NCBI RefSeq assembly: GCF_002240355.1
Contig: NZ_CP016353.1
Coordinates: 5,929,001 to 5,993,000 of the forward strand
Length of the DNA stretch: 64,000 bases
Direction: 5' to 3'
Origin: Prauserella marina
GTDB taxonomy: Bacteria; Actinomycetota; Actinomycetes; Mycobacteriales; Pseudonocardiaceae
The notes under the pieces were generated by a model. The model was not told where the DNA came from. It searched no databases and saw nothing but the letters and a program-made list of their open reading frames with translations. Of this stretch, positions 53,652 to 63,853 are shown piece by piece (positions within the stretch are counted from its first letter, which is position 1; every line of letters starts with the position of its first letter). A program made the translations under genes and the position numbers.

Positions 53652-54392
53652 CTACTGGTTGTCGCCGCCGTCCCTGAGTCGCTCGTTGTAGAAGCCGTTG
53701 ATGTGCGCGTCGACAAGATCGGCGGCAGCGGTGCCGTCGCCCTTCTCTATGGCTCGCAGGATGTCCTCGTGCTCGCCGACGAGTTTCGCCGCGACACTCG
53801 GCCAGTCCGGAAGCCGCTCGAACACCACGGTCATCTCCGACTTCACCGCGTCGCGCAGGGCCTGCATCAAATCGCTGGCCAACGCGTTGCGGGAGGTCCG
53901 CGCGATGCTGACGTGGAACTCGGTGTCCAGCTCGTTGAACTCCTGGTACTCCAGCTTCTCGACGCGCATCGACTCGATGAGCGAGCGAAGGTAGGCGATG
54001 TCGTTGGCCGTCCTCCGCTCCGCGGCCATGCTCGCCGCGTTGCGTTCGAGCTGCACCCTGATCTCGACAAGATCGGTGATGCTGGTCTGGGCAAGAGCCA
54101 TGTGAAGCCGCAACAGGTTACTCAGCGCAGCGGTGGATCGCCCCGCGACAATCGAACCGGCGTCCCTGCCCGACCCGACGTTCGCTTCGATGATGCCCAT
54201 CGCCTCCAGCGCGCGCAGTGCCTCGCGCACACTGGTGCGGGAGACGCCGAGTGCTTCGACGAGCTCGCGCTCGCTGGGCAGTTTCTCGCCGACTCGCAAC
54301 CTGCCGTCGAGAATGCGTTGCTCGATCTGGGCAAGCACTTGCTCGTGAGTGCGCACCTTGCGCACCGGTTCCCACGACGATTCGCTAGTCAC
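53652..54392 (-). CDS. FadR-subfamily GntR regulator (left of the mutase operon)
   Basis: A 246-residue regulator. The winged HTH is at about residues 15-85 (RILDGRLRVGEKLPSERELV, then LGVSRTSVREALRALEAMG), followed by an FCD ligand domain with metal-site residues in FNELDTEFHVSIAR, GEHEDIL and DAHINGFY. The GTG at 54392 begins homology. It is similar in the same places to the regulator at 62324, making a paralogous pair around the operon. Candidate sites with GACCACA halves lie at 54619-54658. Confidence 0.86.
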   Translation of the reverse strand: MTSESSWEPVRKVRTHEQVLAQIEQRILDGRLRVGEKLPSERELVEALGVSRTSVREALRALEAMGIIEANVGSGRDAGSIVAGRSTAALSNLLRLHMALAQTSITDLVEIRVQLERNAASMAAERRTANDIAYLRSLIESMRVEKLEYQEFNELDTEFHVSIARTSRNALASDLMQALRDAVKSEMTVVFERLPDWPSVAAKLVGEHEDILRAIEKGDGTAAADLVDAHINGFYNERLRDGGDNQ

Positions 54393-54643
54393 ACCGACCG
54401 CCTCCCCCGAGGCACGCCGCAACGCGACATCGACATCCTTGCCATCTACACGACCTCCTTGGGTTCACGCGACCCAGTCGAAGGAGCGACGGAGGAGGGT
54501 CTGCCTTTCGAATCGTGTCGCACGCCGGCTGACACGTACTCGATCACAGTGGCGCGACCGGCCCGGATTTTCACCGGAGTTCCTCACACCGTCGGGATCA
54601 CCGAACGTAATGAGAGTAGACCACACTATTGACATACGTCGAT

Positions 54644-54658
54644 GTCGGTCCGACCACA
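54644..54658. promoter_or_regulatory. Candidate FadR-family operator upstream of the left regulator
   Basis: GTCGGTCCGACCACA matches 12 of 15 positions of the perfect palindrome at 62252-62266. A further half site GACCACA lies at 54619-54625. Both fall between the regulator start and the 3' end of the mutase operon, consistent with autoregulation. Confidence 0.55.
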
Positions 54659-54664
54659 GCTCGA

Positions 54665-54898
54665 TCAGGGCATCGTGTCCTCCGATCCGCACATCACGGC
54701 AGGTGTCCGCTGCCACTCGTCGTCGTCCGGGCCGTCCTGGAGCAGCCACGCCGCGAGCAGGTCGAGCCGGGCGGCCCGCTCCTCGTCGCCAGCCTCCGCG
54801 AACCCTTCGGCCGCACGCAGGACGGCGATCGCCGCGCGCCGCAACAGCACCACACCACCCGGTGACTCCTCAAGACCGGCCCGCTTCGTATCGGTCAT
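54665..54898 (-). CDS. Small helical protein coupled to the LctP-type permease
   Basis: A 77-residue protein (MTDTKRAGLEESPGGVVLL start) with a predicted helical, Ala/Leu/Arg-rich middle (ALRAAEGFAEAGDEERAAR-like) and an acidic tail. Its ATG overlaps the permease stop (ATGA), arguing that it is expressed. It is the last gene of the mutase operon. Unknown family. Confidence 0.55.
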   Translation of the reverse strand: MTDTKRAGLEESPGGVVLLRRAAIAVLRAAEGFAEAGDEERAARLDLLAAWLLQDGPDDDEWQRTPAVMCGSEDTMP

Positions 54899-56532
54899 GG
54901 CACCATCCAGGACAGCAGCGGCGTCGTCTGGAGATAGACGAGCAGACACATCATCGGCACGAAAATCGCAGAGGCGACCAGTACCTTGCGGAACAGTTCG
55001 CCCTCCCTGCCCGCGAGGCCGACGGCACCGGCACCGATGGCGAGGTTCTGTGGGCTGATCATCTTGCCGAGCACTCCGCCCGAGGTATTGGCCGAGGCCA
55101 TGAGCGTGTCGGAGAGCCCAGCGCCATGTGCCGCGCTGACCTGAAGCGCGCCGAACAGCGAGTTGGACGAGGTGTCCGACCCGGTCACCGCCGTGCCGAA
55201 CCAGCCGAGCAGCGGGGACAGCACGGAAAAGAACGCCCCGGTTCCCGCGAGCAACAACCCCATGGTCGCCGTCTGTCCCGACGCGTTCATCACGTAGGCG
55301 AGCGCGAGCACGGCCATGACGGTCACCGACGCGGTTCTGAGCTGATGCAGCGTCCTCCCGTAAGCCGAAACCACCTCCCTTCTGCCGACCTTGAGGATCA
55401 CCGCGGACACCAGGCCCGCGATGAACAACACCGTTCCCCCTCCGGCCAGCCAGTCGAACTTGTACTGGATCAGGCTGAGCGGTTCTCCATCGGCGGAGGT
55501 GACGTGCAGACCGGGCCACGCGAACGTGATGGTCGTCCTGCCGAGCAGATCGGCGACCGCGGGTATGGCGACGACGGAGAAGAACCCGATGATCACGAGG
55601 TAAGGGGCGAACGCCTTCGCGACGTCGGTACGGGTGTCGACGGGCTGGGCGCGCACCGAGGTCGTCACTCCGCCACCGCCGTCCGGCGGGGACTCGCCCC
55701 CGATCCGCTCGGCCTTTCCACCTTCGGGGCGCCACACCCGCAACAGCGCCAGTACCGCTGCGGCGGAAACCAGCGCGGCGGCGATGTCGGTGAGTTGTAC
55801 CGGACCGTAGTTGGCCATGAGGAACTGCACGACGGCGAACGAAAGACCACACACCAGCGCGGCTGGCCACGCCTGTTTCAACCCACGCCAGCCGTCGAGG
55901 ACGACGACGAGGACGAACGGCACGAGGACCGCGAGCACGGGGACCTGCCGTCCCGTCATCGCGCTGAGGTCGTCCATCGGCAGGTCGGTGACTCTGGCCA
56001 GGGTGATGATCGGCAACCCGACCGCACCGTAGGCGACGGGAGCGGTGTTGGCGATCAACGCGACCGTCGCGGCCTTCACCGGACTCAGCCCGACGGCGAC
56101 CAGCATGACGGCGCAAATGGCCACCGGTGCGCCGAATCCGGCCAGCGCTTCGAGCAGCGCGCCGAAGGAGAACGCGATGATGATGCCTTGGACGCGTTGA
56201 TCGTCGCTGATCTTCGCGAAACTTCGCCGGAGTACGTCGAAATGCCCCGACGTCACGGTCAGCTGGTAGATCCAGATCGCGTTCACCACGATCCACAGCG
56301 CGGGAAAGAGGCCGAACGCCGCGCCTTCCGCCGCGGCGTTGAGTGCCTGCCCCACCGGCATTCCGTAGACGATGAGGGCGACCAAAATCGACAGCGCGAG
56401 TCCGATCAACGAAGCGAGCCACGCGCGAACCCGGAACACGCCGAGCAGTACGAACAACACGAGCAGCGGAAGGCCCGCGACGAGCGCGGACCAGCCGAGA
56501 TTGCCCAAGGGGTCGGGAACCTGCTGGTACAT
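54895..56532 (-). CDS. L-lactate permease (LctP) family transporter
   Basis: A 545-residue multi-pass transporter. Family traits are ALLEALAGFGAPVAICAVML near residue 125, NTAPVAYGAVGLPIITLARV near residue 160, and the C-terminal TGSDTSSNSLFGALQVSAA and GGVLGKMISPQNLAIGAGAV near residues 450-500. LctP members import lactate or glycolate with protons. The ATG at 56532 follows GGGAGG. It is 49 bp after the mutase large-subunit gene. 2-Hydroxyisobutyrate is 2-methyl-lactate, so this permease may bring in the operon's substrate (inference). Confidence 0.86.
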   Translation of the reverse strand: MYQQVPDPLGNLGWSALVAGLPLLVLFVLLGVFRVRAWLASLIGLALSILVALIVYGMPVGQALNAAAEGAAFGLFPALWIVVNAIWIYQLTVTSGHFDVLRRSFAKISDDQRVQGIIIAFSFGALLEALAGFGAPVAICAVMLVAVGLSPVKAATVALIANTAPVAYGAVGLPIITLARVTDLPMDDLSAMTGRQVPVLAVLVPFVLVVVLDGWRGLKQAWPAALVCGLSFAVVQFLMANYGPVQLTDIAAALVSAAAVLALLRVWRPEGGKAERIGGESPPDGGGGVTTSVRAQPVDTRTDVAKAFAPYLVIIGFFSVVAIPAVADLLGRTTITFAWPGLHVTSADGEPLSLIQYKFDWLAGGGTVLFIAGLVSAVILKVGRREVVSAYGRTLHQLRTASVTVMAVLALAYVMNASGQTATMGLLLAGTGAFFSVLSPLLGWFGTAVTGSDTSSNSLFGALQVSAAHGAGLSDTLMASANTSGGVLGKMISPQNLAIGAGAVGLAGREGELFRKVLVASAIFVPMMCLLVYLQTTPLLSWMVP

Positions 56533-56581
56533 CAGTACCTCCCAGTCCCTCTTCGTCGAGGGGTGAGTCGGAGCACTGGCG

Positions 56582-58354
56582 TCAGAACACCGGGGTTTCG
56601 GTGTAGGAACCGAAAACGTCACGCAGCGCACCGGTGATTTCGCCCATGGAAAGGTGGGCTTCGACGGCCTCGATGGTCGCCGGCATCAGGTTCGCGTCGT
56701 GGTCGCCTGCCAGCTCGACAAGCCGGTCGAGTGCCGCTTTGGCTCTGTTCTCGTCTCTCGTCGCCCTGACATCGGCCAGCCGCGCCAACTGCCGTGCCTC
56801 CGACTCGGGATCGAGCTTGTGTGTCTCGACTTTCTCGCCCGCGCCTTCGTCGACGTACTTGTTGACGCCGATCACCGGCCGGTCCCCGCTCGCCTTTCTC
56901 CGCGCGAAGTCGTATGCGGTATCGGAGATCTCGCGCTGGAAGAAGCCCTGCTCGATCGCGGCGACAACTCCGCCGAGTTCGTCCACTGTGGCCATGTAGT
57001 CGTCGATCCCGCGTTCCAGCTCACTCGTGAGGTGTTCGACGTAGTACGAACCGCCCAGCGGGTCGATCACGCTGGTGACGCCGGTTTCGTCGGCGATGAT
57101 CTGCTGAGTGCGCAGTGCGACCTTCATCGCCTGCTCACTCGGGATCGTGTATGCCTCGTCGAGTCCGTTGGTGTGCAAGGACTGCGCTCCACCGAGCACG
57201 GCCGACAGTGCCTGCAACGCGGTACGGATGATGTTGTTCAGCGGTTGCGGTTTCGTCAACGTCGCCGCCGCCGTCTGAGCGTGGAACCGCAGTCGCATCG
57301 ACTGCGGATTTTCCGAGCCGAAGCGTTCCCGCATCATCTTCGCGTAGTAACGGCGGACCGCCCTGAACTTGGCGGCCTCCTCGAAGAAGTCGGCCTGACT
57401 GACGAAGAAGAACGACAGCCGCGGCGCGAACTGGTCGACGTCGATACCTGTGGCGACGACATCGTCCACATAGGCACGCGTGATGGCCATGGTGAAAGCG
57501 ATCTCCTGAAGCGCGTTGGCTCCGGCTTCGCTGATGTGGTAACCGCTGATGTTGACCGGGTTGTACCGGGCCATGTGCTGCGAGCAATAGGCGATCGTGT
57601 CCCGCACGATGCGCATGCTCGGACGAACGGGGAAGACCCATTCCTTCTGTGCGACGTATTCCTTGAGGATGTCGTTCTGAATGGTGCCCGACAGTTTGTT
57701 CAGGTCGTAGCCTCTGCGCTTCGCGACGGCGATGTACATCGCGAGCAGAATCCACGCCGAAGGGTTGATCGTCATCGAAACACTGATCTCTTCGAGGTCG
57801 ATGCCGTCGAAGAGCGCTTCCATGTCGGGAAGGGTGTCGATCGCGACGCCCTCCCTTCCGACCTCACCAAGGCTCATGGGGTTGTCACTGTCCAGTCCCA
57901 TGAGTGTCGGCATGTCGAAATCGATGGAAAGCCCGGTCTGTCCCTGCGCGATGAGGTACTGAAACCGCTTGTTCGTCTCCTCGGCCTGTCCGAAACCGGC
58001 GATCTGCCGCATCGTCCAATTGCGACCTCGGTACATCGTTGGGTAAGGGCCCCTGGTGTAGGGGTAGCGTCCAGGGAAGCCGATATCCGCCCATTCCGAG
58101 GGGAGGTCTTCCGGCGTGTAGACCCGTTTGACGGGCATCCCGCTCCCTGTGCGGTACTCGTCCTTGCTCTCCGGCTGCCTGCGCAGGAAGGCGGCCAGTT
58201 CGTGGGACTCCCAATCGGACAGTTCGGCCTTGACGGCTGCTACCAGTGCCTCTGTCGCCAGTTCGCTGTCCACAACAGGCTCTCGTGCGTCCTCGGTGGT
58301 CACGTCTCTCGCCTCCGCTTTCGGTTTCCTCGCTGTTGCAGGCCGGCCGTTCAC
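56582..58354 (-). CDS. hcmA: 2-hydroxyisobutyryl-CoA mutase-like, coenzyme B12 acyl-CoA mutase large subunit
   Basis: A 590-residue large subunit without a B12 domain, so two-component. It is expected to interconvert 2-hydroxyisobutyryl-CoA and 3-hydroxybutyryl-CoA. Three residues known to set substrate in this family are seen: Ile118 in MRQIAGFGQ (Tyr in methylmalonyl-, Phe in isobutyryl-CoA mutase), Asp145 in GLSIDFDMPTLMG, and Gln236 in LKEYVAQKEW (Arg in methylmalonyl-CoA mutase). The spacing, +27 and +118, equals that of Ile90, Asp117 and Gln208 in Aquincola HcmA as I recall it. The GTG at 58354 overlaps the meaB stop (GTGA); a GTG at 58303 is an alternative. Confidence 0.85.
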   Translation of the reverse strand: MNGRPATARKPKAEARDVTTEDAREPVVDSELATEALVAAVKAELSDWESHELAAFLRRQPESKDEYRTGSGMPVKRVYTPEDLPSEWADIGFPGRYPYTRGPYPTMYRGRNWTMRQIAGFGQAEETNKRFQYLIAQGQTGLSIDFDMPTLMGLDSDNPMSLGEVGREGVAIDTLPDMEALFDGIDLEEISVSMTINPSAWILLAMYIAVAKRRGYDLNKLSGTIQNDILKEYVAQKEWVFPVRPSMRIVRDTIAYCSQHMARYNPVNISGYHISEAGANALQEIAFTMAITRAYVDDVVATGIDVDQFAPRLSFFFVSQADFFEEAAKFRAVRRYYAKMMRERFGSENPQSMRLRFHAQTAAATLTKPQPLNNIIRTALQALSAVLGGAQSLHTNGLDEAYTIPSEQAMKVALRTQQIIADETGVTSVIDPLGGSYYVEHLTSELERGIDDYMATVDELGGVVAAIEQGFFQREISDTAYDFARRKASGDRPVIGVNKYVDEGAGEKVETHKLDPESEARQLARLADVRATRDENRAKAALDRLVELAGDHDANLMPATIEAVEAHLSMGEITGALRDVFGSYTETPVF

Positions 58355-59286
58355 ATCCGGCGGATCAACCGCTCGGCCGCGGAGACCGGGTCCCCAATCC
58401 GGGCGGTCACCTCGTCGACCGCGCGCTCGAAGTCGGGGTTGCCCGGCTTGAGCCGGTCGAGAACGAACTCCTCGGCGAGCCATCTGATCCTGGTCGCGGT
58501 GTTGCGCCTTGCCCGAACGTCGAGCTCACCACTGCGGGAAAGCCAGCTCAGGTGCTCGGCGAACCGCTCGGCGAGCTCCGGCACTCCCTGCCCTGTCGCG
58601 GCGACGGTCTGCTCGATCGGCACGTTCCACTGGCCAGGCTTCCGCTTGCTGAGCCTGAGCATGTCCCGTAGTTCCGCGACCGTCTTCTGCGCGCCCTCCC
58701 TGTCGGCCTTGTTGACCACGTGGACGTCCGCGACCTCCAGCAGTCCTGCCTTGATGGCCTGCACGTCGTCCCCCATGCCGGGCACGCTGACGACGGCCAC
58801 CGTCTGCGCCGCGCTGATGACGTCCACTTCGGCCTGTCCGACACCGACGGTTTCGAGCACCACGACGTCCTTGCCCGCCGCGTCGAGCACGGTGACCGCG
58901 TCGAGCGCCGCCCTGGAAAGGCCGCCGAGCGCGCCCCTCGTCGCGATGGATCTGATGAAGACGTCCCTGTCACCACCGAGAGCCGACATCCGGATACGGT
59001 CGCCGAGTATCGCTCCGCCACTGAACACACTGGACGGATCGACCGCGATGATTCCGACGGTCTTGCCATGGCTCCGGTAGTGCTCGGTCAACGCGGCGAC
59101 GAGCGTGCTCTTTCCGCTCCCCGGAGGTCCGGTGACGCCGAGAACGTGCGCGGAACCCGATGCGGCGTGCAGCGAGGCGAGCGCTTCGTTGACCCCTTCC
59201 GTCCGGCGCTCCACCGCCGTCAGCATGCGCGCGATCGCGCCGGGTTCACCCGCCTTGACCCGTTCGGCGACGGTGCCGGGAGTCAC
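58351..59286 (-). CDS. MeaB-type GTPase chaperone of the B12 mutase
   Basis: A 311-residue G3E GTPase. P-loop GVTGPPGSGKSTLVAALTE near residue 48, VDPSSVFSGGAILGDRIRM near residue 80, ETVGVGQAEVDV near residue 140 and NKADR near residue 190 are present. MeaB proteins load adenosyl-B12 and protect the mutase from inactivation. The GTG overlaps the ligase stop and its end overlaps the mutase large-subunit gene, so it is dedicated to this mutase, like MeaH of the 2-hydroxyisobutyrate pathway. Confidence 0.9.
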   Translation of the reverse strand: MTPGTVAERVKAGEPGAIARMLTAVERRTEGVNEALASLHAASGSAHVLGVTGPPGSGKSTLVAALTEHYRSHGKTVGIIAVDPSSVFSGGAILGDRIRMSALGGDRDVFIRSIATRGALGGLSRAALDAVTVLDAAGKDVVVLETVGVGQAEVDVISAAQTVAVVSVPGMGDDVQAIKAGLLEVADVHVVNKADREGAQKTVAELRDMLRLSKRKPGQWNVPIEQTVAATGQGVPELAERFAEHLSWLSRSGELDVRARRNTATRIRWLAEEFVLDRLKPGNPDFERAVDEVTARIGDPVSAAERLIRRM

Positions 59287-60716
59287 GGTGCCTCCTCGGC
59301 GCGAAGCTGGTGCAGCATCGACCGGTCGTCGATGACCCTCCTTGCCTTGAAGGCGGTGCGATCGAACGTGTTCTGCTCGACGGGAACGACCGTTGCCCCG
59401 ACACCGAGTACCGCCCGCAGTTTGCCTGCCAGCCGGTCGGCCCACGCCCGGGTGTCGGTTCCGAGCTCCGCGCGGTGTTCCGCCTTGACCACCAGTGTGT
59501 CCATGATGGACTCTCTGCTGATGATGATCCGGTGCTCGCCTCCGTATTCCGGATCCGCCATCACCACGTCGTCGATCGCACTCGGGTAGATGTTCTCACC
59601 GCGCACGATGAACATGTCGTCGATCCGGCCGTAGATTCCGCGCGGCAGAAAGGGATAGGTACGTCCTCTTTCGATCGACGGTGCCTCCCAGCGCGTCAAA
59701 TCATTGGAGAGCAGGCGGATCATCGGCTGGCTCGTCCGTTCGAGCGTCGTGTAGACCGGAGTTCCCTCGTTGCCGTAGTCGACCCTGGTGTGATTGGCAG
59801 GGTCACACACTTCGGTGTAGACGAGGTCCTGCCAGCACAGCACACCCGGCTCGTCAGCGGCGGCTCCGAGGTGCATCCAGGGACTGACCTCCGCCATGCT
59901 GCCCGAGTCGTACACCTCGGCGTCGAAAGCCTCCGCGATCCTCGCCCGAATGGAAGGAACGCTCGCGCCGGGCTCACCGGAGAAGAAGAGCTTGCGCACC
60001 CCGAGTTCCGCCGGGTCGATGCCCTCGGTGCGAGCGACCTCGGCGACCCTCAGCGCGTACGACGGCGTCGCGTAGAACACCGTGACGCCCATCTGCTTCA
60101 TCCAGTGGACGGTGCGCGTCGTCTGCCCCGAAACACCTGCCCCGAAAGGAAAAACTCTCGCCCCGAGCCGTTCGGCACCGATGTAGGCGCCCCACGATCC
60201 CCAGTAAAGGGTCAACGGCGAAGCGACGAGCACCGTGTCGGATGGCCGGATTCCCATTGCCCACATGACCCGTGCGTGCGCGTTGGCCACGCTGCGCCAG
60301 TCCCGCTCGTTGATACCGAACGCGGTCGGCCTTCCCGTCGTCCCCGAGGTGCCGTTGACGTGCTTGACTTCCTCCGGCGGCACGCATAGGTAGCTGCCGA
60401 ACGGTTCGTTCTCCGCTTGGTCGGCACGTAGTTCTTCCTTGCGTACCACCGGAACCTTCTCGAAGTCGGCAAGCGACTTGATCGAGGAAGGGTGGATTCC
60501 CGCCTCTTCCCACTTCCCGCGGTAGAACGGCGATCGCGCCCACGCGTAATCCATGACGTCCTTGATCCTGGCGAGGATCAGTTCGTCGCGCTGCCGCGCC
60601 GGCATCGTCTCCCTGCGGGGAAACCAGTGTTTCGCGCCCTCGGCCGGCCGGTAGTCGTCGTCATACCGGGGCGGCCAACTCCATTGCTCCATGGGTTTCT
60701 CCATCCCCGTGCTCAC
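59283..60716 (-). CDS. PaaK-family CoA ligase (2-hydroxyisobutyrate-CoA ligase candidate)
   Basis: A 477-residue AMP-forming ligase of the phenylacetate-CoA ligase type. It has YAWARSPFYRGKWEEAGI near residue 55, the nucleotide motif VNGTSGTTGRPTAFGI near residue 119, DSGSMAEVSPW near residue 265, and GRIDDMFIVRGENIYPSAID near residue 370. In the described 2-hydroxyisobutyrate pathway the ligase next to the mutase belongs to this family. It overlaps the small-subunit stop (GTGA) and the meaB start. Confidence 0.86.
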   Translation of the reverse strand: MSTGMEKPMEQWSWPPRYDDDYRPAEGAKHWFPRRETMPARQRDELILARIKDVMDYAWARSPFYRGKWEEAGIHPSSIKSLADFEKVPVVRKEELRADQAENEPFGSYLCVPPEEVKHVNGTSGTTGRPTAFGINERDWRSVANAHARVMWAMGIRPSDTVLVASPLTLYWGSWGAYIGAERLGARVFPFGAGVSGQTTRTVHWMKQMGVTVFYATPSYALRVAEVARTEGIDPAELGVRKLFFSGEPGASVPSIRARIAEAFDAEVYDSGSMAEVSPWMHLGAAADEPGVLCWQDLVYTEVCDPANHTRVDYGNEGTPVYTTLERTSQPMIRLLSNDLTRWEAPSIERGRTYPFLPRGIYGRIDDMFIVRGENIYPSAIDDVVMADPEYGGEHRIIISRESIMDTLVVKAEHRAELGTDTRAWADRLAGKLRAVLGVGATVVPVEQNTFDRTAFKARRVIDDRSMLHQLRAEEAP

Positions 60717-61144
60717 AGCGTCGACGTCTGTCCACCGACGAGCGCGCGAACGGTGTCGACGATCGTCTCCGGTGTGGTGTCCTGGCCGAGTACGGCCGCG
60801 ACCCCCATCCGCAGCAGTTCGGCCTCGTCCTCTTCCGGCATCACCCCTCCGGCGACGAGCGCGAAGCGGTGTGCATCGGGCAAAGCGCCGAGCAGTTCGA
60901 AGATCCGCGTGAAGATCGGCATGTGGGCGCCGGAAAGCAGGCTCACCCCCAGCACGTCGACGTCTTCCTGTACGGCGGCTTCGATCACCTGCTCCGGGCT
61001 GCGATGCAGCCCGGTGTAGATGACCTCCATGCCGGCATCGCGCAGGGTTCGGGCGACGACCTTCACTCCGCGGTCGTGCCCGTCGAGACCGATCTTGGCC
61101 AGCATCACCCTGATCGGATGGTCGTGACTTTCGTGCGCTGCCAT
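60713..61144 (-). CDS. hcmB: B12-binding small subunit of the acyl-CoA mutase
   Basis: A 143-residue Rossmann-like B12 domain with the three family motifs: DGHDRG near residue 22 (the His that ligates cobalt), SLLSG near residue 70, and AGGVMP near residue 99. It begins HPIRVMLAKIGLDGHDRG after a short N terminus. The ATG at 61144 is the first of the operon. Its separation from the large subunit is normal for hydroxy- and isobutyryl-CoA mutases. Confidence 0.9.
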   Translation of the reverse strand: MAAHESHDHPIRVMLAKIGLDGHDRGVKVVARTLRDAGMEVIYTGLHRSPEQVIEAAVQEDVDVLGVSLLSGAHMPIFTRIFELLGALPDAHRFALVAGGVMPEEDEAELLRMGVAAVLGQDTTPETIVDTVRALVGGQTSTL

Positions 61145-61174
61145 CTCACACTCCCGATCCCGGTACGTCCTCTG

Positions 61175-61198
61175 TGTGGTATGACCATAGGTGTGGTC
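61175..61198. promoter_or_regulatory. Candidate FadR-family operators in the mutase/hydrolase divergent promoter
   Basis: TGTGGTATGACCATA (61175-61189) matches 12 of 15 positions of the palindrome at 62252-62266; a half site TGTGGTC follows at 61192-61198. They lie 31-54 bp upstream of the mutase small-subunit ATG, in a good place to repress both directions. Confidence 0.6.
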
Positions 61199-61231
61199 GC
61201 AGACATAGACAAGGCTTCCGGAGAAGAACCG

Positions 61232-62272
61232 GTGATCTGCCGCCGCACCGGCAGACTCGGGCGCGTCACGCTCAACCGGCCGAGCGCACTGAACGCACTG
61301 ACCCTCGACATGATCACGCTCGCGACCCGCACCCTGCGTGAATGGCTCACCGACTCCGCCGTCGAGCTCGTCGTCGTCGACGGCGCGGGAGAAAGGGCAT
61401 TCTGCGCGGGCGGCGACATCACCGTCGTGCACGGCGCCGCGGAAGGCGATCAGCGAATCGCGAAGGAACTCTGGCGAGCCGAGTACGAACTCGACGCCCT
61501 GCTCGCCCACTACCCGAAACCCGTCGCCTTTCTCATGGACGGAATCGTCATGGGCGGCGGGCTCGGATTGAGCGGTCACCATCGGGGACTGCGCATCGTC
61601 ACCGAACGCACCGTGCTCGCGATGCCGGAGGTCGCCATCGGGCTCGCGCCCGATGTCGGCGGCGCGCTGCTGCTCACGAGAACCCCCGGCCTACTCGGAA
61701 CCCATCTCGCGCTGACCGCTGGCCGGATCGGGCCTGGCGACGCGATCGCATGCGGACTGGCCGATCACGCGGTCGATTCGAGTCGGCTACCCGAAGTGCT
61801 CGGCGCACTGGAGCGCGGCGAGCCGCTCTCCGAACTGACCTATCCCGCGGCGAGCCCCCTGCTCGGCGACGGCCCCTGGATCCAAGCCTGCTACTCCGCA
61901 CCAACGGTGACCGAGATTCGCAAACGTTTGCGCGCACGCCCGGAACCTGCCGCCTCTGAGGCCGCCAACGCCGTCGACTCCGCTTCGCCCACGGCGCTCG
62001 CGGTCACCCTTGAGGCGCTGCGAAGGGCCAGGACCATGACGGACATCGAGGAATGCCTCGTGCAGGACTACCGGCTGTGCTCCCGCTTCCTCGACAGTCC
62101 TGACCTGGCGGAAGGCATCCGCGCGGCCGTGATCGACAAGGACCGCGCTCCTCACTGGAACCCCGCCTCCCATGAGGAGGTGAGCGCGGAAGCCGTCGCC
62201 TCGTACTTCGAACCCCTTCCGGAGGGCGAACTCCAACTCCCGCCCAGACCTTGTGGTCCGACCACACGCTAA
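61232..62272 (+). CDS. 3-hydroxyisobutyryl-CoA hydrolase/enoyl-CoA hydratase family protein
   Basis: A 346-residue crotonase-fold protein of the HIBYL-CoA hydrolase type (ECH_2), longer than simple hydratases. It has GRVTLNRPSALNALTLDMI near residue 11, oxyanion GAGERAFCAGGDITVVHG near residue 52, MDGIVMGGGLGLSGHHRGLR near residue 96 and MPEVAIGLAPDVGGALLL near residue 125. It would act on a 3-hydroxyacyl-CoA, the mutase product class. A GTG at 61232 after GGAGAA is preferred; an ATG at 61181 inside the operator would lengthen it by 17 residues. Confidence 0.8.
   Translation: MICRRTGRLGRVTLNRPSALNALTLDMITLATRTLREWLTDSAVELVVVDGAGERAFCAGGDITVVHGAAEGDQRIAKELWRAEYELDALLAHYPKPVAFLMDGIVMGGGLGLSGHHRGLRIVTERTVLAMPEVAIGLAPDVGGALLLTRTPGLLGTHLALTAGRIGPGDAIACGLADHAVDSSRLPEVLGALERGEPLSELTYPAASPLLGDGPWIQACYSAPTVTEIRKRLRARPEPAASEAANAVDSASPTALAVTLEALRRARTMTDIEECLVQDYRLCSRFLDSPDLAEGIRAAVIDKDRAPHWNPASHEEVSAEAVASYFEPLPEGELQLPPRPCGPTTR
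62252..62266. promoter_or_regulatory. Perfect palindrome, operator candidate for the right FadR-type regulator
   Basis: TGTGGTCCGACCACA is a 7+1+7 perfect dyad. It overlaps the 3' end of the hydrolase gene and lies 58 bp before the FadR-type start. The form resembles GGTC-centred sites of FadR-subfamily GntR proteins. Related sites at 54644 and 61175 suggest a small regulon. Confidence 0.68.
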
Positions 62273-62323: not shown

Positions 62324-63028
62324 GTGAGCAGTGAAGCCGCGGCGCCGAGCATTCGGCGCCTGCACACCCACGAGCAAGTACTGGCCGGCATCCAACAGCG
62401 AATTCTCGGCAGCAGGCTCGTCGCGGGGGACGCGTTGCCAGCCGAACGAGACCTCGCCGATTCGCTCGGCAGCAGTCTCTCGGGTATCCGGAAAGCGCTG
62501 CGCGTACTGGAATCGCTCGGCCTCATCCGCGACGAAGCGGGAAACTGGGTGCTCACGGGAAACTCTACGACGGCGCTCGCCAATCTGCTTCGGCTTCGCA
62601 TGGCACTGGCAGGTTTCCGGCTCACCGATCTTGTCGAGGTGCGGGTGCAGCTCGAACGTTCGGCGGCGACCCGGGCCGCCGAGGCCGCGACATCGCAGGA
62701 CCTCGGCCGGTTGCGCGACATTCTCGAAAACATGAGTGAACCCGGCATCTCGACCAACCGGTTCAACGCGCTCGACACCGAGTTTCACGTCGCGCTTGCC
62801 CGCGCGTCCCACAACGCGCTCGCCGTCGAGTTGATGCAGTCACTTCGCGACGCGGTCCAAGCGGGAATGACGACGGCTTTCGCTTCAATCACGGACTGGC
62901 CGGGCACCGCACACCGGCTTCACGAAGAACACGACGCCGTACTCGACGCGATCGAGACGGGAGACGGCGCGCTGGCGGCACGCAGAATCGGCGCACACGT
63001 CACCGATTTCTACCGCGCGGCGGGGTAG
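62324..63028 (+). CDS. FadR-subfamily GntR regulator (right of the mutase operon)
   Basis: A 234-residue regulator with winged HTH (about 15-80: QRILGSRLVAGDALPAERDL, SLGSSLSGIRKALRVLESLG) and FCD domain, metal-site residues in FNALDTEFHVALAR, EEHDAVL and GAHVTDFY. It is clearly paralogous to the regulator at 53652. The recognition helix differs (SSLSGIRKAL versus SRTSVREAL), so the two may read slightly different sites or form a hierarchy. The GTG follows GGAGG. Confidence 0.86.
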   Translation: MSSEAAAPSIRRLHTHEQVLAGIQQRILGSRLVAGDALPAERDLADSLGSSLSGIRKALRVLESLGLIRDEAGNWVLTGNSTTALANLLRLRMALAGFRLTDLVEVRVQLERSAATRAAEAATSQDLGRLRDILENMSEPGISTNRFNALDTEFHVALARASHNALAVELMQSLRDAVQAGMTTAFASITDWPGTAHRLHEEHDAVLDAIETGDGALAARRIGAHVTDFYRAAG

Positions 63029-63190: not shown

Positions 63191-63853
63191 TTGGCGAGGC
63201 AGCTTCGCGCGGAGGTCACCAGAAACATGATCCTGCGCGCGGCGGCGGACGCGTTCGATCAGTACGGCTACGGCGGGACGAGCCTCAGCGATGTGCTCAG
63301 GTACGCCGGAGTCACCAAGGGCGCGCTCTACTTTCATTTCACCTCCAAGGAACAACTGGCCAACGCGATCGTCGAATGCCAGCAGGCGTGGTCCGTCGCA
63401 CCGGCGAAGGAGAACTTCGACCGAGGGGCGCCCGGACTCGAATCGGTCGTCCTGCTCTCGGTCCACTGGGCGGTGGGGCTGACCGAAGATCCGATGCTGC
63501 GAGCGAGCATCCGGCTGTCCTTGGAAACCGGAATGTTCAGTCGGCCAGACTCGGATCCCTACCGGGAATGGCTGGAGGAAACAGCGAAGCTGCTGCGCCG
63601 CGCGGCCGATTCAGGTGAACTTCGGCGCGGGATCGACCCCGAGGTGCTCGCCCGGTTCGTCGTCGGCGCATTCACCGGAGTCCAAGCCGTGTCTCAGATC
63701 CTCAGCGGACGAATGGACCTCACCCGGCGGGTCGGCGAGATGTGGGAGCTGCTGCTCCCCTCGCTCGTCGATGGCGAACGTCTCCCCTACTACCTCGCCC
63801 TCGTCGACACGGAAGGCACGCGGCGGCGGCAAGAACCAGCCGCGCAACGGTAA
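63191..63853 (+). CDS. Gamma-butyrolactone receptor-like TetR regulator (ArpA/ScbR type)
   Basis: A 220-residue TetR-family protein. The first 65 residues (ARQLRAEVTRNMILRAAADAF, then YGGTSLSDVLRYAGVTKGAL and YFHFTSKEQLANAIVECQQ) match the HTH of gamma-butyrolactone receptors closely, more than ordinary TetR proteins. Length is standard. It starts at TTG after GAGAGGA. No afsA-type synthase is in the window, so it may be an orphan receptor that gates a secondary-metabolite cluster beyond the right edge. Confidence 0.8.
   Translation: MARQLRAEVTRNMILRAAADAFDQYGYGGTSLSDVLRYAGVTKGALYFHFTSKEQLANAIVECQQAWSVAPAKENFDRGAPGLESVVLLSVHWAVGLTEDPMLRASIRLSLETGMFSRPDSDPYREWLEETAKLLRRAADSGELRRGIDPEVLARFVVGAFTGVQAVSQILSGRMDLTRRVGEMWELLLPSLVDGERLPYYLALVDTEGTRRRQEPAAQR

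Follow-up and report, generated by a model that had tools for sequence, protein, structure and literature searches.

A predicted 2-hydroxyisobutyrate operon of Prauserella marina with a linked LctP permease and a candidate adenosylcobalamin riboswitch ahead of a GntR regulator gene

Introduction

The described systems closest to the locus reported here are the HcmAB-HCL-MeaH gene sets of Aquincola tertiaricarbonis and Methylibium petroleiphilum PM1, which encode a 2-hydroxyisobutyryl-coenzyme A (CoA) mutase, its ligase and its chaperone and have a GntR regulator nearby. The same four genes, with the same substrate-site residues and in the order found on the PM1 plasmid, are present in Prauserella marina (NZ_CP016353.1, assembly GCF_002240355.1, a nearly complete genome of 6.99 Mb). 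The whole stretch analyzed, hereafter the window, covers 64 kb (5,929,001-5,993,000), and coordinates are window positions unless a genome position is indicated. We consider it likely that the locus is an operon for the catabolism of 2-hydroxyisobutyrate (2-HIBA) which has its own importer and a cofactor-sensing regulator, and which is gated by both the substrate and adenosylcobalamin (AdoCbl).

The described loci differ from the window in their additional genes. The 17.7-kb stretch of PM1 carries annotated adenosyltransferases, a thiamine pyrophosphate (TPP) enzyme and a 3-hydroxybutyryl-CoA dehydrogenase downstream, and, unlike the window, it holds no LctP or hydrolase relative and no riboswitch match. 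According to the available part of its description, ibcM, N, O and P in the ibc cluster 2 of the actinobacterium Mycolicibacterium sp. ELW1 encode the small subunit, ligase, chaperone and large subunit, and the cluster also holds a regulator of the FadR/GntR type and a transporter (PMC13188929). It differs in its transporter, which is of the MHS family of the major facilitator superfamily (MFS), and in including dehydrogenase, thiolase and cobalamin biosynthesis genes; the same part of the description mentions no LctP, acyl-CoA hydrolase or riboswitch. The lyase-HCL cluster of another actinobacterium, Actinomycetospora chiangmaiensis, also encodes a 2-HIBA-CoA ligase and a GntR regulator, but relies on TPP-dependent lyase cleavage and has no mutase, as far as the accessible text goes (PMC7176365). 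A first-pass annotation of the window, made from its letters alone, had summarized the described loci as ligase, mutase and MeaH; to this a GntR regulator should usually be added (same text of PMC7176365).

Results and Discussion

Homology supports the presence of a 2-hydroxyisobutyryl-CoA mutase, a specific ligase, a chaperone and an LctP permease in one run of genes on the minus strand. The run begins with hcmB, a separate small B12-binding mutase subunit (60713..61144; PF02310, nearest PDB chain 4r3u_C), and continues with hcl, a PaaK-type 2-hydroxyisobutyrate-CoA ligase (59283..60716), which is nearest to the crystallized 2-HIBA-CoA ligase 6hdw (612 bits, versus 221 for the next, PaaK). 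The G-protein chaperone gene meaB/meaH (58351..59286; TIGR00750 over cut-off, PF03308) and the large mutase subunit gene hcmA (56582..58303, or to GTG 58354; MM_CoA_mutase family) follow. GTGA overlaps join hcmB to the ligase gene and the latter to meaB, and also meaB to hcmA if GTG 58354 is the start; GTG 58303, preceded by GGAGG, is at least as likely. The hcmA stop is separated from the ATG of lctP by 49 bp, and lctP overlaps a 77-aa open reading frame (ORF) by ATGA. The first-pass annotation had listed these genes and junctions, and both were recovered when the junctions were re-read and the families matched.

The large subunit is closer to 2-hydroxyisobutyryl-CoA mutase (4r3u_A, 803 bits) than to methylmalonyl-CoA mutase (447 bits) or isobutyryl-CoA mutase (274 bits). 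Its residues Ile118, Asp145 and Gln236, which the first-pass annotation had singled out as substrate-setting by counting from GTG 58354, are I101, D128 and Q219 when counted from GTG 58303 (offset 17), and they face the same letters in the alignment with 4r3u; we take them to correspond to Ile90, Asp117 and Gln208 of HcmA. Among the 103 aligned rows of at least 60% identity, which contain repeats of the same genomes, 100 have I/D/Q and two have L/D/Q, the first site being uncovered in one truncated row. A pivalyl-CoA, isobutyryl-CoA or methylmalonyl-CoA mutase would belong to the same superfamily, and the Aquincola enzyme has a side activity on pivalyl-CoA. Such an identity is nevertheless very improbable: the methylmalonyl-type and IcmF-type paralogues of the same genome have other residues at the three sites (Y/A/R in L001 and L003, F/A/Q in L004; locus designations are ours), and the operon encodes a dedicated hydroxyacid ligase.

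Other combinations were also observed. A second large mutase subunit with Val/Asp/Gln, 50-51% identical, lies near the 2-HIBA mutase in L019 and L024, and a copy on a Shinella plasmid (L098, 57%; hcmA position taken from the annotation) likewise has Val/Asp/Gln. Another mutase of the P. marina genome has Tyr/Ala/Arg (G000:C1:5552114-5556630), with a PF01923 adenosyltransferase about 2.5 kb away.

The order hcmB-ligase-meaB-hcmA is the same on plasmids of Methylibium PM1, Xanthobacter Py2 and Agrobacterium. Since the enzymes are nearest to those of 2-HIBA degradation, the order is that of the plasmids and ibcM, N, O, P of ELW1 are alike, the enzyme core is, judged from sequence, a further representative of an established pathway, its genes arranged as already described elsewhere. 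The conserved permease-hydrolase arrangement and the unusual cofactor-sensing regulator joined to these known enzymes are the new part. Neither was found described in the literature that we searched, which covers part of the field and leaves most subscription papers outside.

The distribution of the mutase is sporadic. In the collection of named genomes, 330 of the 336 stretches matching the search pattern encode a relative of the large subunit, and the best 80 were kept; own paralogues and genome repeats (L001-L005, L086-L094, L100, L102-L104, L106) were dropped before counting. Of 297 genomes sampled from the family, nine have the mutase at E ≤ 1e-200; at the same threshold, the genome of the window is the only one with it in a class sample of 394. 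Three genomes of the same genus have no mutase at this threshold and no LctP match, a pattern consistent with joint acquisition of the genes or with their loss in these sisters. The sporadic occurrence of mutase genes among soil-type actinomycetes agrees with 2-HIBA having a natural source. Downstream of the mutase genes in L033, L046 and L095, TPP-dependent enzymes were also seen, which may be 2-hydroxyacyl-CoA lyases.

The permease gene lctP (54895..56532, minus strand) matches its family over the whole length (TIGR00795, 466 bits for a cut-off of 341; Lactate_perm, PF02652). It follows hcmA, with 21-98 bases between aligned ends, in 14 loci of Pseudonocardiaceae and Streptomyces (the window, L006, L007, L009, L010, L011, L013, L014, L015, L016, L025, L099, L101 and L105). 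The 14 linked permeases form one clade (support 100/100) against 45 unlinked LctPs, these controls being the best-scoring of the family sample and no random draw. On the mutase tree of 93 rows, the lctP trait needs three changes and is confined to one set of 17 rows (support 97), a distribution that a single gain and two losses could explain. No other LctP was found in the genome of the window. The link between LctP and the mutase, which the first-pass annotation had presented together with the divergent hydrolase as a new arrangement, is thus real and conserved. A transporter in such a cluster as such has a precedent in the MFS gene of ELW1 (available part of PMC13188929).

Transporters previously tied to 2-HIBA are few in the sources at hand: the ELW1 gene is reported there with no stated role (PMC13188929), and the accessible text of PMC7419537 lists 2-hydroxyisobutyrate among the substrates of the 2-hydroxycarboxylate transporter family (CitP of Leuconostoc) and nowhere among those of LctP. 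2-HIBA being methyl-lactate, the recruitment of a lactate-type permease would be chemically sensible. Among 20 chosen neighbor genes that were scanned for transporters replacing LctP in other loci, we found an MFS gene in L016 and in L021 (actinobacterial) and a TonB receptor in L053; the others were enzymes, regulators or genes of no family, and no general transporter rule emerged.

A candidate AdoCbl riboswitch lies at 54432..54620, on the minus strand like the operon, between the operon and the gene for regulator A, an FCD-type GntR protein with a GTG start (53652..54392, minus strand; PF07729, PF00392). The match to RF01482 extends over 54448-54606 and scores 44.8 bits (E 8.6e-6), less than the gathering score of 50, so that the element goes unreported at that threshold and was found by a permissive search. 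The orthologue in L009 scored 51.6 bits, and six further orthologues scored 32.6-41.8 bits (E 2.9e-4 to 0.034). The core aptamer and the structure are like those of RF01482. The element departs from that family in its placement ahead of a transcription-factor gene, with a leader ORF in between in loci of the lctP type, and in that nine of ten copies fall below the gathering cut-off.

Eight rows were picked for alignment by one shared 20-base core, and the invariance of this core is therefore partly a matter of choice; the alignment has 59 invariant columns. The structure has 92.7% standard pairs, and sliding the partners destroys the pairing. Pairs changed on both sides numbered 13, versus 7.5 in shuffled alignments (1 of 500 shuffles as high), and cells with changes on both sides 29, versus 10.8 (0 of 500); these covariation figures lean towards the structure because it was derived from the same alignment. 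Taken with this bias, the alignment argues for a conserved RF01482 core and covarying helices in the orthologues.

In each of the eight lctP-type riboswitch loci, a leader ORF of 8-18 codons ends in a stop that shares bases with the start of the regulator gene; in the window it has 18 codons (54389..54445, minus strand) and the overlap is GTGA. The 3′ arm of the last hairpin overlaps the Shine-Dalgarno sequence, and its pairs are conserved in 91.7% of cells, which fits translational repression. AdoCbl riboswitches usually switch expression off. A genuine riboswitch acting on an activator, or one that turns the regulator on, so that B12 would act in another direction, is an unlikely alternative, although the off-direction is deduced solely from this hairpin: a B12-off switch on an activator would close a B12-dependent pathway when B12 is present, and the pairs of that hairpin are conserved. 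The preferred reading is an off-switch on a repressor gene.

A model built from the eight rows (R1) gave 132.5 bits for the window element, itself a training row. In the family sample, R1 matched before all seven regulator A genes linked to both mutase and LctP, before none of 22 unlinked relatives of regulator A, and not before one in a mutase locus lacking LctP. As the seven linked cases are all training rows, the absence elsewhere is the informative part. In the control set there were four weak matches (E 0.045 to 3), none of them before the regulator A relatives. The model also matched in two mycobacterial mutase loci outside the training rows (L017, E 5e-10; L019, E 6.6e-9), where Rfam agrees (E 2.1e-6 and 6e-5) and where the riboswitches (L017:5515-5684; L019:15256-15347) directly precede a second GntR/FCD gene. 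Six weaker matches (E 0.002 to 0.77) were obtained, two in L024 and one each in L011, L016, L030 and L053. Within the literature searched, no cobalamin riboswitch before a GntR-family regulator gene was found described. The first-pass annotation was right about the enzyme and permease genes, but it had overlooked the riboswitch, the leader ORF, the regulators and the operators.

Further riboswitch-like elements were observed. One of the weak matches in L024, a mutase locus in a metagenome-assembled genome labelled Acidobacteria, lies about 100 bases before a GntR/FCD gene (L024:12540-12599, minus strand, 18.1 bits, E 0.018). Other possible AdoCbl riboswitches of the P. marina genome are at G000:C1 positions 1340818, 3978956, 4810589, 3973479 and 5249966, the last three being weak; a PF02572 (CobO-type) gene follows the first at a distance of roughly 2 kb.

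The site TGGTNNNACCA, searched in strict form, precedes hcmB in 22 of 75 loci, compared with 45 of 3800 random windows, and 21 of these 22 sites lie 30-55 bases before the hcmB start, the starts being extrapolated from the alignment. All 22 loci fall among the 30 counted as actinobacterial. In the window, an operator (TGGTATGACCA, 61177..61187) stands in the divergent hcmB/hydrolase promoter and an operator-like site (TGGTCCGACCA, 62254..62264) ahead of the gene for regulator B, a second FCD-type GntR protein (62324..63028, plus strand; PF07729, PF00392). A third site (TGGTCGGACCG, 54646..54656, minus strand) has one mismatch to TGGTNNNACCA and lies ahead of regulator A, where strict copies are present in five of the seven other riboswitch loci. 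The two FCD-GntR regulators probably bind such sites, and either of them may be the one that binds a given site. Beyond regulator B, an ScbR-family autoregulator-type TetR gene adjoins the cluster (63191-63853).

Among 22 regulator A relatives with no mutase nearby, for which short stretches were examined, 10 lie beside an LctP. The operon therefore appears to have taken over a regulator-permease pair of the lactate type. The same observation, with the commonness of LctP (a match somewhere in 170 of 297 family genomes), could mean that LctP, the hydrolase and the regulators are a neighboring lactate or valine module with no functional tie to the mutase. We regard this as improbable, since lctP follows hcmA at short distance in 14 loci, the permeases of which form one clade, and since operator-like sites mark the hcmB/hydrolase and the regulator promoters alike.

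The divergent gene (61181..62272, plus strand) encodes a protein of the 3-hydroxyisobutyryl-CoA hydrolase type (PRK05617, 386 bits, over cut-off; ECH_2). Its Glu150/Asp158 pair, eight residues apart, is presumably the catalytic pair of the family; it is also present in unlinked relatives and does not distinguish the linked copies. In the window and eight other loci the gene is transcribed away from hcmB, and in two it lies downstream in the same direction. The eleven linked hydrolases group together (support 88), apart from the second full-length member of the genome at genome position 3982041. The enzyme most likely releases 3-hydroxybutyrate from the product thioester.

Members of this hydrolase family also act on 3-hydroxypropionyl-CoA. 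This bears on the possibility that lactate is the physiological substrate, imported by LctP and converted through lactyl-CoA and 3-hydroxypropionyl-CoA into 3-hydroxypropionate, which would constitute a natural lactyl-CoA mutase pathway. The membership of the permease in the LctP family, the presence of LldR among the nearest models of the FCD regulators (below cut-off) and the regulator A relatives beside LctP point the same way. The Escherichia coli member LldP takes lactate and glycolate (accessible text of PMC7419537), and a Bacillus enzyme of this mutase kind has a promiscuous lactyl-CoA activity (available part of PMC11599936). The ligase, however, is nearest to the 2-HIBA-CoA ligase, 391 bits above the best PaaK, the I/D/Q residues are those of the 2-HIBA enzymes, and the core genes are shared with the PM1 plasmid and with ELW1, a degrader of isobutylene and 2-HIBA. 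We thus hold lactate to be an improbable substrate, and prefer 2-HIBA.

The small protein noted at the end of the run in the first-pass annotation is a 77-aa ORF (54665..54898, minus strand); the ORF and its overlap were confirmed, and it is probably the remnant of a cobalamin-adenosyltransferase-like gene. Of the 13 other lctP-linked loci, 11 have an ORF beginning at the lctP stop or a few bases from it, one of these ORFs being cut by a contig end. Nine of these ORFs were scanned, and PF01923 (cobalamin adenosyltransferase) was over cut-off in eight, L015 being below; the matches begin at profile positions 19-31, so that the N-terminal part is missing. Adenosyltransferases are also annotated shortly after hcmA in three proteobacterial plasmid loci. 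The 77 residues weakly resemble the C-terminal half; their mean score to 10 relatives was equalled in 1 of 1000 full shuffles and in 5 of 1000 local ones. Against a remnant, a mean as high was obtained with 30 of 2892 real 77-aa tiles (17 of 1027 when only tiles similar in composition are counted), and 54 and 90 of 1000 shuffles attained the best single score. Membership of PF01923 was rejected for the window ORF itself, which has no Pfam or NCBIfam family, is not found by a profile of the orthologues and reaches at best E 0.07 to another locus in a direct search. The remnant reading is kept because the relatives have PF01923-like genes at the same position. Other adenosyltransferases of the genome are at genome positions 5556124 (PF01923) and 1343026 (PF02572).

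We propose the following working scheme. LctP would import 2-HIBA with protons, the ligase would make 2-hydroxyisobutyryl-CoA, and HcmAB with AdoCbl, kept loaded by MeaB, would shift the thioester carbonyl and give (S)-3-hydroxybutyryl-CoA. This product could proceed to acetyl-CoA, or be split by the divergent hydrolase into free 3-hydroxybutyrate and CoA. The FCD-GntR regulators would recognize TGGTNNNACCA both in the divergent promoter and in those of their own genes. With AdoCbl bound, the riboswitch hairpin would repress translation of the leader ORF and, through translational coupling, that of regulator A, which we take to be a repressor; regulator A would then not be made, and the substrate could induce the operon. 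When AdoCbl is absent, regulator A would be made and the operon shut, which would keep the ligase from tying up CoA in a thioester that the apo-mutase is unable to remove. This rationale would explain why the B12 switch sits on a regulator rather than on a B12-dependent enzyme. As for the two-input gate itself, in which the riboswitch stops translation of an FCD-GntR repressor through a leader peptide and the operon opens only with both substrate and cofactor, we judge it evenly poised between holding and failing, and with it the extension of the same gating to the mycobacterial mutase loci.

Several observations weigh against this overall interpretation. The RF01482 gathering score is reached in one of the ten riboswitches scored, and further pair types are no more numerous than in shuffled alignments (190 of 500). 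No R1 match lies beside the cluster in 6 of the 14 lctP loci (L006, L007, L010, L011, L013, L014), the weak match of L011 being far from it. The strict sites in the 64-kb window are two (61177 and 62254), a number reached by 10 of 100 shuffles, and the operator case therefore rests on conserved position and not on the window count. The examined stretches around the remaining mutase loci, those of mycobacteria among them, gave no LctP. All lctP loci belong to one clade of 17 rows, three of which lack the gene. These absences indicate that the permease gene is dispensable. The support of 88 for the grouping of linked hydrolases is under 95, and the annotated ATG of the hydrolase gene falls inside the operator at 61177..61187, so that a later start is possible. 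Finally, neither a 3-hydroxybutyryl-CoA dehydrogenase nor a thiolase is among the ten cluster proteins scanned, the genome at large not having been searched for them.

Conclusion

The 2-HIBA pathway gains a candidate importer with the LctP permease of this operon. The arrangement of riboswitch and regulator suggests that cells use the pathway only if they have the vitamin it needs. It would also offer a testable link between cofactor supply and catabolism, with a B12 riboswitch placed on a transcription factor and not on B12 synthesis, uptake or B12-independent enzymes.

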